Below the pieces are notes generated by a model, which was not told where the DNA came from, made no database searches, and saw only the letters and a list, made by a program, of their open reading frames with translations. From Streptomyces sp. NBC_00190 (GTDB taxonomy: Bacteria; Actinomycetota; Actinomycetes; Streptomycetales; Streptomycetaceae), in the NCBI RefSeq assembly GCF_036203305.1, contig NZ_CP108131.1:4030001-4094000 (forward strand): 64,000 nt of DNA. The letters run 5' to 3'. This document shows, piece by piece, positions 10,203-18,493 of the stretch. Every line of letters begins with the position of its first letter. The first letter of the stretch is position 1. The translations under genes were made by a program, and so were the position numbers.

Positions 10203-11042
10203 CTACTTCATTGCTTTCGGCAGGTAGTTGGGATCCATCGGCCGAATCGGCGGCGCGTTGGCCGCCCGGCGGGCGACGTCCGGGTCACCCGGGTCGGGCT
10301 GGGGGTTCGCCTCCGTCCACACCCCGTTGCACGTGAGGGTGCCGGGACCCGGGTTGACGGCGCAGTTGGTCTCCCAGATCACCCCTTCCGTCGTCACCAC
10401 CTCGACCAGCAGCTGGTTGGCCTGATGGCTGATGGAGATCGCACAGGCGTCGTCCGGGAAGTCGCCCTCCTGGTTGAGGGTGAGGTCGTACCAGGTCCAG
10501 AGACCCGGGGTCGGCTGAAGCCCGCGGATGCCCGCGTACGCACGGGTGTCGCCGGGGAGTACCGCCTTGAACTCCCGTGCGTTGCTGTCCCGGACGGAGT
10601 CGATGTCCACGCACTGGGACGCACCGGTGGCTCCGGTCGCACCCGTGGCTCCCGTGGCCCCGGTCGCGCCCGTGGCACCCGCCGGACCGGTCTCACCCGT
10701 CGCGCCGGTCGCGCCCTGGGGACCCCTGGGGCCCGTCGGACCCGTCGGACCCTGCTTGCACTCGTCGTCGCCGCCACCACCGCGCGGGCCGGCTTGGGCG
10801 GCCACTCTCGGATCGTAATCGTGCTTGTCCGACTTTTCGTGCTTGTCCGACTTGCAGTGGTCACCCGTGGGGGCCGCCGCGCGGACCGCCGCGGTCGCCT
10901 GGATGGCCTGAGCCGTGGCGAACGCGGGGCTGGAAATTCCCGTCACCACCAGGGCGAGTGATGCGAGGGTGCCGCCAGTCAGCCAACCGCTCCGCCTGGG
11001 CAGCGGACCAAGGCGTGACCTGGTCCTGTTCTCGGGGCTCAT
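10203..11042 (-). CDS. Secreted collagen-like protein, short paralogue
   Basis: 279 residues from an ATG with AGGAG in front. Signal peptide with an Arg-Arg n-region, hydrophobic core and predicted cleavage after SPAFA (residue ~42). A Lys/His/Asp-rich linker with Cys63 and Cys95 precedes about 15 Gly-X-Y triplets (residues 98-142: GPT, GPR, GPQ, then mostly GAT). The C-terminal domain (from Cys144) is homologous to that of the longer paralogue at 12511-14268: both share AYAG, W-x-D, AC-x-ISI, VVTT-x-G and a Pro-rich end. No sortase motif or second membrane helix is visible, so the protein is probably released or held by partners. Function unknown. Confidence 0.85.
10617..10751 (-). repeat. 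Gly-X-Y coding repeat, short collagen-like gene
   Basis: About 15 triplets, mainly Gly-Ala-Thr, in uninterrupted collagen register. Confidence 0.85.
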
Positions 11043-11148
11043 ATACGCCGCTCCTTCTCGAAACCGGATCGAACGATGTGCGATGGGCCGTCTCGGGCCA
11101 CCTCGGTCATCGTGGGTATCGCGGTCGCAAGTGGTGGAACGCCTCGCG

Positions 11149-11164
11149 GATAAGTCAACTTATC
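11149..11164. promoter_or_regulatory. Conserved inverted repeat upstream of the short collagen-like gene
   Basis: GATAAGTCAACTTATC: two perfect 7-base arms, 107 bp upstream of the start at 11042. A near copy lies at the equivalent place upstream of the long paralogue (14371-14386) within a wider conserved upstream block, so it is a good candidate operator or promoter element. It also lies upstream of the divergent glycosyltransferase. Confidence 0.6.
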
Positions 11165-11279
11165 GGACCAGCAGTATGAGCCCAATGGAGTCTTTTGGGA
11201 GGTGGCGGACGCGACGCGCCCAGGCGCGGACGAACCGTGGCCTACCGTCGGCTCACGGTCGTTTTCATCACCACAGGGG

Positions 11280-12401
11280 ATGGAATCCTTGAGAGCAACA
11301 GTCTGCCTGAACATGATCGTCAAAAATGAGGCACCGGTGATCCGGCGCTGTCTCGAATCGGTGCGCCCTTTGATCGATACATGGGTGATCGTGGACACGG
11401 GCTCGACGGACGGCACCCAGGACATCATCCGGGAATTCTTCGGCGATCTGCCCGGTGTCCTGCACGAACGGCCGTGGAAGGGATTCGGCGACAGCCGCAG
11501 CGAGGCGATCGACCTTGCCCGCTCCAGCGCGGACTACCTGCTGTTCATCGACGCCGACGACGTGATGCAGGTACAGCCCGGCTTTCGCATGCCCGACCTC
11601 ACTCTCGACGCGTACCGCATCGCGGTGCACCACGAGCCCGTCATCCACTGGCGGCCCGCTCTGGTCTCCACCCGCTTGCCGTGGAAATACGTCGGCGTAC
11701 TCCACGAGTACATCGACTGCGAAGTCCGGCACAGCAGCGGCGTGCTCGAAGGCGCCAATATCCTCATCATCGGCGGCGGGGCACGCCTCAGGGAATCGGG
11801 CGAGCGGGAAAAGTACCTGCGCGACGCGGCGGTACTCGAACAAGGTCTGGCCAAGGAACCCGGAAATGCCCGGTACGCGTTCTACCTGGCCCAGAGCTGG
11901 CGCGACGCCGGAGAACCGGAGAAATCCCTCGCCGCCTACGACCGCCGTGCGGACATGGGCGGCTTCGCCGAGGAAGCCTTCTGTGCCCAGCTGTACGCGG
12001 CACGCATCGCGGCGAACCTCAAGAAGCCGTCGGCCGAGGTGATGGACCGCTTCCTTCGCGCACACGAGAGCCGTCCCACGCGCGCCGAGGCGATCGGCAG
12101 CCTCGCCCGCGTCTGCCGGCTCGAGAGCCGCTGGCCGCTGGCGTACATGTTCGCCCGGCAGGCGGTCCGGATCCCCCGCCCGGACGACATCCTGTTCGTC
12201 GAGTTCGACTGGCACGACTGGCGCGCGCTCGACGAACTCGCCGTGGCCGCCTACTGGGTCGGCGAGTACCAGGAGTCGCTGGACTGCTGCGAGCGCCTCG
12301 TCCAGGACGGCAGGCTTCCCGTCGAGCAGCACGACCGGGTCACTGCCAACCTCGAATTCGCACGGCGCAAGCTGGACCCGCAGTACCAGGTGGTCGCCTG
12401 A
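11280..12401 (+). CDS. Family 2 glycosyltransferase with TPR-like C-terminal half
   Basis: 373 residues from ATG 11280; GGGG lies directly before it, so the TTG at 11289 (9 bases later) may be the real start. The GT-A fold begins with CLNMIVKNEAPVIRRCL, then VDTGSTDGT and the metal-binding LLFIDADDVM (DxD type), as in the TPR-glycosyltransferase group that includes protein glycosyltransferases such as SunS. The second half (about 170-370) is all-helical with TPR-like repeats (AFYLAQSWRDAGEPEKSLAAYDRR). No membrane segment: it acts in the cytoplasm. It sits between two collagen-like genes and is divergent from the short one, suggesting that these are its substrates (inference). Confidence 0.87.
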   Translation: MESLRATVCLNMIVKNEAPVIRRCLESVRPLIDTWVIVDTGSTDGTQDIIREFFGDLPGVLHERPWKGFGDSRSEAIDLARSSADYLLFIDADDVMQVQPGFRMPDLTLDAYRIAVHHEPVIHWRPALVSTRLPWKYVGVLHEYIDCEVRHSSGVLEGANILIIGGGARLRESGEREKYLRDAAVLEQGLAKEPGNARYAFYLAQSWRDAGEPEKSLAAYDRRADMGGFAEEAFCAQLYAARIAANLKKPSAEVMDRFLRAHESRPTRAEAIGSLARVCRLESRWPLAYMFARQAVRIPRPDDILFVEFDWHDWRALDELAVAAYWVGEYQESLDCCERLVQDGRLPVEQHDRVTANLEFARRKLDPQYQVVA

Positions 12402-12420
12402 CCGCCGCTCCCCCGCACGA

Positions 12421-12472
12421 GACTGGAGGGCGTCGCCCCGGCCGACAGGCCGTGGAGCGGCGCCCTCCAGTC
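12421..12472. terminator. Bidirectional terminator between glycosyltransferase and long collagen-like gene
   Basis: GACTGGAGGGCG (12421-12432) pairs with CGCCCTCCAGTC (12461-12472) in the gap between convergent genes; the loop itself is GC-rich and can pair further. Confidence 0.6.
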
Positions 12473-12510
12473 GTCGCGCCGGGCCGTCGCGTCGGCCCGG
12501 GCTTCCCTAG

Positions 12511-14268
12511 CTAGGGGAGGCGGTTCCGGGAGGCTCCGCGCACCAGGTCTCCCTTGAACTCCTTGCCGCGCAGGGTTCCGGGAGTCGGGGAGGGGGTCAG
12601 TTCGATCCACCCCTCGTCCCAAGTGAAGTTGGCGCCGTTGGTGTCACCGTGAGTCTGGAAGATCTTGCCGTCCGTCGTCACGACCTTGATGTACGAGTTG
12701 CTGCCCTGCTCGATGATCGAGATGCCGCAGGCCTTGCCGAAGGGGAATCCCGGGTTGTCCGCGTTCGTAATGTCCTGCCAGACGGGCACACCTCCGGCCG
12801 TGGTCGCGCGGCCTGCGTAGGCGATGCCGTTCGTGAGAGCGGCACTGAACGACAAGGTGTTCGAAGGCGCGTAGCTGTCCATGTCGTCGCAGGGCCCGGT
12901 ACCCGTCGCGCCCGTACCACCTGTCGCGCCCGTGGCACCGGTCGCACCCATAGCGCCCGTCGTACCCGCACCGCCCGTGGCACCGGTCGCACCCGTACCA
13001 CCCGTCGCGCCGGTTGCGCCCGTGGCACCGTCCGCGCCGTTCACACCCGGAGCGCCCGTACCGCCTGTCGCACCCGTCGCACCGGTCGCGCCCGTGGCGC
13101 CGTCCGCGCCGTCCTCGCCCGGGGCGCCCGTCGCACCCGTACCGCCCGTCGCACCGGTCGCGCCCGTGGCGCCGTCCGCGCCATCCGCGCCGTCCGCGCC
13201 CGGGGCGCCCGTACCGCCCGTCGCACCGGTCGCGCCCGTGGCACCGTCCGCACCGTCCGCGCCGTCCGCGCCCGGGGCGCCCATCGCACCCGTACCGCCC
13301 GTCGCGCCCGTGGCGCCGTCCGCGCCATCCGCGCCATCCGCGCCATCCGCGCCCGGGGCGCCCGTACCGCCCGTCGCACCGGTCGCGCCCGTGGCGCCGT
13401 CCGCGCCATCCGCGCCGTCCGCGCCCGGGGCGCCCGTACCGCCCGTCGCACCGGTCGCGCCCGTGGCACCGTCCGCACCGTCCGCGCCGTCCGCGCCCGG
13501 GGCGCCCATCGCACCCGTACCGCCCGTCGCACCCGTCGCGCCCGTGGCGCCGTCCGCGCCATCCGCGCCATCCGCGCCATCCGCGCCATCCGCGCCCGGG
13601 GCGCCCGTACCGCCCGTCGCACCGGTCGCGCCCGTGGCACCGTCCGCACCGTCCGCGCCGTCCTCGCCCGGGGCGCCCGTACCGCCTGTCGCACCCGTCG
13701 CGCCCGTGGCACCGTCCGCACCATCCGCACCCGGAGCACCCGTCGCACCCGTCGCCCCGCCACCCAGACCCGTCGCGCCCGTGGCACCCCTGGCGCCGGG
13801 TGCACCGTTCAGGCCCGGCGCACCCGTGGCGCCGGTCGCGCCGTCCACGCCGTCCACGCCCGGAGCACCCGTCGCACCCGTCGCACCCGTCGCGCCCGTC
13901 GCACCGGTCGCGCCCGCGGCACCCCTCGGCCCCGTCGGCCCTGTCGGCCCCGGCCTGCCCTCTTCGCACCTGTCGTCACCGTCGGGCCCGGCCTCGATGC
14001 CCGCGGCCTTCGGGTCGTCGTCCGGATCCTGGTCCGGTCGCTGGTCCGGGCGATGGTGATGCCCGTTCGGCTTGCAGTGGTCCCCACCCGTGGGGCTCGC
14101 CGCGTTCACCCGCTCGGCCGCCCGGATGCTCTGAGCAACGGCGAAGGCGGGGCTGGCGACTCCCATCATGACCAGGGCAAGCGAGGCGAGGGTGCCGCCC
14201 GTCAGCCATCTGCTCCTTCTCGGCAGCGGTCCAAGCGTCGTTGACCTGGTCCTGTTTTCGGGGCTCAT
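12511..14268 (-). CDS. Secreted collagen-like protein, long paralogue
   Basis: 585 residues from the ATG at 14268, preceded by AGGAG; the start MSPENRTRS matches the short paralogue and an in-frame ATG 18 codons upstream is not supported. Order: Arg-rich signal peptide (cleavage after SPAFA, ~43), Pro/Asp/His-rich linker with Cys65 and Cys101, a collagen-like region of about 118 Gly-X-Y triplets (104-459) made of GAT, GAD and GAP blocks, one register slip near GLGGGAT, and a 126-residue C-terminal domain starting CDDMDSY that is shared with the short paralogue. Ala in X and Thr/Asp/Pro in Y make a potential glycosylation-rich triple helix. No wall anchor is visible. Confidence 0.87.
12892..13959 (-). 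repeat. Collagen-like Gly-X-Y coding repeat, long gene
   Basis: About 118 triplets with a higher-order unit of roughly [15 protein letters not shown] followed by one to five GAD, repeated around ten times. The DNA is nearly identical between units, so copy number could change by slippage or recombination, and assemblies may collapse it. Confidence 0.9.
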
Positions 14269-14370
14269 ACCACTCCTACTCGAAACCGATCGACCGATGT
14301 GTGGTCGGGCCTCCCAGGCCACACATCGTCAGCGTGGGAAGCACTGCCGCGAGTGGCGGGACAACTCGCA

Positions 14371-14386
14371 GATAGGTCCACTTATC
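14371..14386. promoter_or_regulatory. Inverted repeat upstream of the long collagen-like gene
   Basis: GATAGGTCCACTTATC, an imperfect copy of the repeat at 11149-11164, 103 bp upstream of the start at 14268. The stretch 14269-14395 aligns by eye with 11043-11175, so the two genes share a duplicated promoter region. Confidence 0.55.
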
Positions 14387-14503
14387 GGATTAGCGATGCG
14401 ACACCAACGGCCGCCATGACGGACACGAAGGGCGCGAGCCGTCAGGACGCGGTGGGCGACGACCAGCCGGCCGTGGCGAGTGGGAGCACTCCGGCACCAA
14501 AAA

Positions 14504-18043: not shown

Positions 18044-18493
18044 TCAGCCCGCGTTCTGCTCGTTCTGCCGGGATTCGGCCAGGATCTTGCCGAGCGCCTC
18101 GTCGAGGTTCTCCTCGAAGTCACCCAGGTTGCGCTCCTGACCGAGCGGAACGAGCCGGTCGGTGCGGTCGAGGAACGCGACGAGCGGGGCCGCGCTCGCG
18201 CGGAACAACGCCCGGTCGCCGCCGACCTGGAGGCGGATGTGGACATCGGACAGGTCCTCGGGATCGGTCGGGGCGATGTGCACATCGCCGTCGCCGCACG
18301 GCTTGTTGATGCCGTCGAGGAGGAGCTCCCGGCCGAACGCCCAGGTCACGGGCGCGTCTCCGGGAAGGTGGAAGGTCAGGCGGACTGCGTAGGGGTCCCG
18401 AGCGTCGTACCGGAGTTCCACCGGAATCCGGAACGAGAGCTCCTCGGAAACGAGGAAGCTCATCATGACCTCTGCCTGTACCGACTCGCGCAT
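18044..18493 (-). CDS. ssgA: Sporulation-specific cell division activator SsgA
   Basis: SALP-family protein of 149 residues that in Streptomyces activates septum formation and affects branching and spore formation. The body SFLVSEELSFRIPVELRYDA, the GDAPVTWAFGRELLLDG block and RLVPLGQE are as in S. coelicolor and S. griseus SsgA. Two starts are possible: the ATG at 18493, or the ATG at 18463 with GAGG in front, giving 139 residues. It lies directly downstream of its known activator ssgR, same strand, 96 bp apart. SALP proteins are confined to morphologically complex actinomycetes, so this gene supports the genus assignment. Confidence 0.95.
   Translation of the reverse strand: MRESVQAEVMMSFLVSEELSFRIPVELRYDARDPYAVRLTFHLPGDAPVTWAFGRELLLDGINKPCGDGDVHIAPTDPEDLSDVHIRLQVGGDRALFRASAAPLVAFLDRTDRLVPLGQERNLGDFEENLDEALGKILAESRQNEQNAG

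Follow-up and report, generated by a model that had tools for sequence, protein, structure and literature searches.

Two genes for secreted collagen-like proteins (CLP1 and CLP2) enclose the gene of a glycosyltransferase (GT) with tetratricopeptide repeats (TPRs) in the 64,000-nucleotide stretch of the Streptomyces sp. NBC_00190 chromosome analysed here (contig NZ_CP108131.1, positions 4,030,001 to 4,094,000; 'the window'). We consider it likely that this GT2-TPR enzyme is a cytoplasmic protein O-glycosyltransferase that acts on threonines in the Gly-X-Y triplets of the CLPs before their export. The basis of this reading is the linkage of the genes, their co-occurrence across genomes, the way Thr content tracks the enzyme, a broken GT gene next to a CLP with hardly any triplets in genome G046, and the presence of two enzyme lineages at one locus. 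An earlier note on this DNA had made the same core inference, which co-occurrence, the Thr content tracking GT, and G046 now support. Its description of the locus also holds: two exported, Cys-flanked Gly-X-Thr proteins with a common C-terminal domain, carrying 15 and 118 triplets, flank the enzyme. The features of the locus are as follows, in window coordinates.

10203..11042, minus strand: CLP1, secreted collagen-like protein, 279 aa (open reading frame (ORF) listing, Pfam, triplet count)
10917..11042, minus strand: CLP1 residues 1-42, signal peptide and conserved N-region with LGPL motif (cleavage assigned by eye)
10617..10751, minus strand: CLP1 Gly-X-Thr run of 15 triplets, 11 of them with Thr at Y (triplet count)
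10206..10616, minus strand: CLP1 C-terminal domain, predicted to hold two beta-propeller-like blades, plus tail (CLP comparison, structure model)
11280..12401, plus strand: GT2-TPR enzyme of 373 aa, proposed to O-glycosylate collagen Thr (Pfam, AF2 model, fold matches)
11280..11771, plus strand: GT-A catalytic domain, GT residues 1-164, with D91-A92-D93 and H142-E143 (alignment, AF2 model)
11781..12374, plus strand: TPR-like helical domain, GT residues 168-365 (sub-threshold Pfam, AF2 model, fold matches)
12511..14268, minus strand: CLP2, secreted collagen-like protein, 585 aa (ORF listing, Pfam, triplet count)
14140..14268, minus strand: CLP2 residues 1-43, signal peptide with conserved N-region (by eye)
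13753..13959, minus strand: CLP2 Gly-X-Y run 1, 23 triplets (triplet count)
12895..13749, minus strand: CLP2 Gly-X-Y run 2, 95 triplets (triplet count)
12514..12894, minus strand: CLP2 C-terminal domain (identity to the CLP1 domain)
11149..11164, no strand: perfect palindrome GATAAGTCAACTTATC, a candidate operator in the CLP1-GT intergenic region (motif search)
14371..14386, no strand: near-palindrome GATAGGTCCACTTATC upstream of CLP2 (motif search)

Linkage of the enzyme to Gly-X-Thr collagens

Among the 121 Streptomyces genomes drawn, GT (called at E 1e-30) was found in 30 and the CLP C-terminal domain (called at E 1e-5) in 29. Both were present in 24, only GT in six, only the domain in five, and neither in 86 (Fisher p 3.8e-15, phylogeny ignored); the earlier note had proposed asking whether enzyme and collagen genes occur independently of one another, and they do not. 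As for physical linkage, 29 of 45 matches to the C-terminal domain sit no more than 3.7 kb from a GT. The Pfam collagen model PF01391 matches 116/121 genomes but was rejected as a detector of collagen genes: its 30 top loci include many that are G-X-P-rich stretches or match on both strands, and the model was therefore left out of the co-occurrence count. Low Thr at Y in these 30 top scorers would be an unfair control and was not used as one.

The association extends beyond Streptomyces. Of 108 distinct GT loci, 75 have a collagen ORF with 8 triplets or more no further than about 6 kb from GT, and 68 have a Thr-rich one. The 80 named GT loci in this count are the best 80 of 160 relatives; the duplicates L147, L148 and L150 were removed, the broken L152 was scored as having no collagen, and control regions, viral loci and a separate draw from the class were left out. 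Thr-rich collagen accompanies 24/41 A-type and 15/20 B-type Streptomyces enzymes (the two lineages described below) and 29/47 enzymes outside the genus, and was found in none of 20 control regions of 13 kb. The pair recurs in Actinomycetota, Pseudomonadota, Acidobacteriota and Myxococcota, the last three being the source of the loci outside Streptomyces. The Streptomyces C-terminal domain was found at none of the 47 loci outside Streptomyces, so the common partner of GT is the Gly-X-Thr stretch itself. Where the ends of these non-Streptomyces collagens are readable, both their N- and C-terminal parts differ from those of Streptomyces. We also noted an N-terminal module (like AADVTVTPPAGGGFVVKG), unlike that of Streptomyces, common to the proteobacterial GT-linked collagens at L076, L077, L101, L103, L104 and L111. 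At L051 a protein with multiple membrane spans, resembling by eye a GT-C glycosyltransferase, is encoded between CLP and GT (L051:4329-5861).

What kind of proteins does the enzyme accompany? CLP1 has a single run of 15 triplets, eight of them Gly-Ala-Thr, and CLP2 has runs of 23 and 95 triplets, with 47 Gly-Ala-Thr and Thr at Y in 61/118. When each sequence was shuffled 2000 times, no run exceeded 6 triplets for CLP1 or 10 for CLP2; the uninterrupted repeats of both proteins are beyond chance. The Pfam Collagen model matches CLP2 at 8.9e-41 and CLP1 with 25 bits, slightly below the 27.2 cut-off. Cysteines flank the triplets in both proteins (C63 and C95 before, C144 after in CLP1; C65 and C101 before, C460 after in CLP2), and among 44 Streptomyces proteins with the CLP N-region and triplets 42 have a Cys no more than 8 residues ahead of the triplets, and all 44 have one no more than 8 residues behind them. 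The N-regions of CLP1 and CLP2 match each other, and their export signal, a hydrophobic core with an A-X-A-like site, was assigned by eye. Twin-arginine export was rejected as not conserved, since just 21/44 N-regions have RR within the first 22 residues.

The C-terminal domains of CLP1 and CLP2 are 35% identical. A scan of 21 members returned no convincing Pfam family; the domain is modelled with two blades, beta-propeller-like, and judged by their names most VIA rows are propeller proteins. A Foldseek search that bears on a TNF/C1q-like head gave no hit reaching E 0.001. A lectin head was set aside: it had no sequence support and no viral or PDB Foldseek match at the same threshold.

The GT gene is transcribed away from CLP1 and towards CLP2, and its reading frame is also open from a GTG at 11202. 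Its product matches Pfam Glycos_transf_2 at 6.2e-15, TPR models match below their cut-offs, and no signal peptide or membrane segment was seen by eye. Both halves of the AF2 model (pLDDT 93.9) have fold matches. D91-A92-D93 and H142-E143 are invariant in alignment A2, which comprises 45 of 81 GT sequences (L061, L088 and L097 were excluded for stop codons, L067 by choice, others for brevity). The best PDB sequence match of the catalytic domain is GmaR (1.7e-12, about 95 residues), the flagellin O-GlcNAc transferase of Listeria; SunS, ThuS and GmaR, which come nearest to GT in fold or sequence, are cytoplasmic peptide or protein glycosyltransferases, SunS and ThuS being peptide S-glycosyltransferases.

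Threonine content of the triplets

The Thr content of the triplets goes with the enzyme. Of 29 GT-linked CLP domain matches, 28 have at least 12 triplets and 26 have Thr at no less than 30% of Y positions (exceptions: G046, G068, G078). Genomes with GT hold 11 further, unlinked matches: in the two that carry the LGPL N-region, one of them from the genome of the window, Thr fills 59% and 74% of Y positions, and in the other nine, which have no LGPL motif, 0-12% (the one in G074 looks decayed or misframed). The five domain matches in genomes without GT have 0-3 triplets, the G082 one being a weak 52-aa fragment. With the CLP1 triplet stretch as query, matches of at least 70% identity occur in 18/30 genomes with GT and 3/91 without. 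In G046 (L152), GT is split in two fragments with a TGA, and the adjoining CLP is down to 3 triplets; decay or an assembly error is possible for this gene. Proteins with the same C-terminal domain are encoded at L215-L220, L222 and L223; these are not linked to GT and have Thr-poor triplets, often of the GPKGDRG type, and a different signal peptide.

The genome of the window encodes a third CLP, L213 (C1:3932797-3933141), 108 kb off, which has the N-region of CLP1 and CLP2 and carries Thr in 74% of its Y positions. No GT match lies within 10 kb of it and no palindrome within 5 mismatches upstream of it; on this protein GT would have to act in trans.

These observations bear on two other readings of the linkage. 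GT could build or decorate another surface molecule, such as a polysaccharide, a teichoic acid or another protein, and merely be co-regulated with the CLPs in one surface programme. We regard this as unlikely: the matches that span both GT domains are the peptide glycosyltransferases SunS and ThuS, it is the Thr content of the triplets and not mere protein presence that tracks GT, and the link recurs with collagens that do not have the Streptomyces C-domain. Alternatively, GT could glycosylate the CLPs outside the triplets, in the linker or the C-terminal domain, with triplet Thr serving only to stabilise the helix. CLP linkers and C-domains do contain Thr and Ser, and bacterial collagens often have Thr at Y, with hydration networks given as the reason (PMC8968730). 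The C-domain, however, is absent from 47/47 non-Streptomyces loci while a Gly-X-Thr collagen is present in 29, and GT-distant paralogues with the same C-domain are mostly Thr-poor or free of triplets, which makes glycosylation outside the triplets quite improbable.

Enzyme lineages and the breadth of the family

In the GT tree the 39 A-type and the 20 B-type rows from Streptomyces form separate clades, each with 100/100 support, and rows of other phyla stand between them. The tree is unrooted and has 104 rows (L061, L088, L097, the duplicates L147, L148 and L150 and the broken L152 being left out), and the program warned of long branches, including that of L109 meeting the B-type clade. A neighbourhood of hisC, lacI, a phosphoesterase gene, a transmembrane protein gene, thiC and yibEF is common, whole or in part, to loci of both types: besides the window, A-type L033, L034, L035, L037-L040, L043, L065 and L143, and B-type L154, L155 and L158. 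A CLP is present at all ten of these A-type and three B-type loci except L043. Divergent enzymes in one slot beside the same CLP family are explained most simply if both types act on one and the same substrate.

This bears on a further explanation, namely that GT and collagen genes travel together on a mobile island without any functional tie. Such an island would fit the patchy distribution in the genus (30/121 genomes) and the occurrence of the pair in more than one chromosomal neighbourhood. It would leave coincidence to account for a locus where either of two GT lineages accompanies the same CLP family, for recurrence in four phyla and for 0/20 control regions, and we find it hardly credible.

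GT relatives are also encoded on viral contigs, where a collagen-like ORF is present at 38/80 GT loci and directly adjoins GT at 29/80 (24/67 distinct GTs; L230-L306). Taken without a phage base rate, this neighbourhood is weak evidence. Phage glycosyltransferases have been assigned to DNA protection or host-surface change (PMC7029224, PMC10202952); modification of the phage's own collagen-like fibres would be another reading of them.

Several results weigh against collagen threonine as the acceptor. In the sequence covered, 33/108 GT loci show no collagen ORF reaching 8 triplets, and at some of these the contig ends; L053, L054, L057, L060, L062, L066, L099 and L112 are free of collagen with 6 kb on either side. 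In seven loci (L046, L056, L061, L064, L149, L153, L157) the neighbouring collagen is Thr-poor. In other genera of the class, a Gly-X-Thr collagen was found at just 3/13 loci, where the GTs are 35-50% identical and two contigs are short. At a loose E of 0.001, the CLP1 triplet stretch finds matches in 20/30 genomes with GT but also in 28/91 without, and in 17/38 viral loci the listed collagen ORFs have Thr at less than 30% of Y. From the 33/108 and 3/13 counts it follows that the GT family at large is not devoted to collagen alone and that other acceptors must exist. Two observations stand beside these. The Thr-poor collagens at L046, L056, L061, L064 and L149 have a distinct N-region and lie within 6 kb of A-type GTs. 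The class draw also yielded further Streptomyces loci, and a Gly-X-Thr collagen is present in 4/4 of them (L340-L343; L340 is seemingly the L040 locus).

Regulation, proposed product and known systems

The 16-bp palindrome GATAAGTCAACTTATC lies about 106 bp before CLP1, and CLP2 is preceded at about 102 bp by GATAGGTCCACTTATC, a single-mismatch version. In the whole 8.9-Mb genome, sites matching GATARGTNNACTTATC are only these two, and by eye the upstream regions of CLP1 and CLP2 resemble duplicates. Within 2 mismatches the palindrome occurs in 6/46 CLP upstream regions, at -113 to -121 from the start codon; five of the six sites are CLP2-type and the window's two are included. With so few occurrences, it was rejected as a general operator. 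CLP1, GT and CLP2 contain no TTA codon, and bldA control of the three genes was rejected on that ground. Some 4 kb from CLP2, at 18044-18493, the window has a gene of the SsgA family. The earlier note had pointed to sporulation genes nearby, but we find no support for a link with sporulation: 50 of the 63 Streptomyces loci examined have none of six neighbourhood genes tested, and the SsgA-family gene is a single case, seen in the window only, with no search made beside other pairs.

How might the enzyme work on the collagens? GT would transfer a sugar from a nucleotide-sugar donor, at first guess UDP-GlcNAc or UDP-Glc, to Thr at Y of Gly-X-Thr in CLP1, CLP2 and the unlinked third paralogue. 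The TPR arm probably holds the acceptor chain, and the glycosylated chains would then be exported by Sec. Outside the cell they would form a glycosylated collagen trimer, flanked by disulfides and bearing a globular head. Putting these elements together, we offer as a possible rather than a probable picture a widespread, horizontally exchanged GT2-TPR family in bacteria and phages with Gly-X-Thr collagen as a main acceptor, in which Thr at Y is largely a glycosylation code and not only a matter of hydration, phage members modify their own fibres, and the Streptomyces trimer carries a six-bladed propeller head. If true, three two-blade domains would close this head in a collectin-like secreted molecule.

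Thr makes up about a third of Y positions in collagens of all bacteria and half in those of Gram-positives, and hydration is the reason usually offered (PMC8968730). Because several phyla have a linked enzyme, glycosylation of Y-position Thr becomes directly testable beyond spore formers, and the Streptomyces GT-CLP pair could be a module for producing glycosylated bacterial collagen. Among the matches listed from titles and abstract openings of the open PMC literature, there was no description of a GT-collagen pair in Streptomyces.

Finally, we would place the locus among known systems. SunS and ThuS resemble GT in overall fold, but the aligned part is 18% identical (7msp). GT was rejected as a SunS-type glycocin S-glycosyltransferase, scoring 41.9 bits with NCBIfam TIGR04195, whose cut-off is 350; the locus showed no glycocin gene, though no search was aimed at one. 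GmaR resembles GT in catalytic-domain sequence and differs in its acceptor and in the short extent of the match. The streptococcal adhesins Scl1 and Scl2 share Gly-X-Y repeats with the CLPs, through which NCBIfam matches arise far under cut-off; their heads are different, and CLP1 and CLP2 have, by eye, no LPXTG motif. For the two predicted blades of the C-terminal domain, two-blade propeller lectins of the RSL/BambL type, built of four-stranded blades, are a candidate comparison. BclA of the Bacillus cereus group also has an O-glycosylated collagen-like stalk with a globular head (PMC11952670, PMC8968730), and in B. thuringiensis a putative glycosyltransferase gene lies two genes from the Thr/Ser-rich F-BclA (preprint, PMC11952670). 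Unlike the CLPs with their predicted two-blade head, BclA has a TNF/C1q-like head and is located in the exosporium.

The closest parallel is SgtA of C. difficile, which has a GT domain and TPRs and whose gene is immediately upstream of bclA3 (PMC7157674). In vitro, with UDP-GlcNAc and Mn2+, SgtA attaches beta-O-GlcNAc to the Thr residues of collagen peptides from BclA3, and it also modifies Ser when substituted for Thr (PMC7157674). The window shares with it an N-terminal GT-A domain followed by C-terminal TPRs and an adjoining Thr-triplet collagen gene, a likeness of domain layout and gene context; the Thr acceptor in vitro belongs to SgtA (PMC7157674). BclA3 is a spore exosporium protein, whereas the Streptomyces proteins are secreted and have another head domain. 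The earlier note saw its weak point in a cytoplasmic enzyme acting on an exported substrate; given that SgtA glycosylates BclA3 peptides (PMC7157674), this is no serious objection, and the chemistry is plausible. Glycosylation of collagen Thr by a GT-TPR enzyme is already known from SgtA and BclA3, and by this analogy the Streptomyces version appears to be a variant of it.

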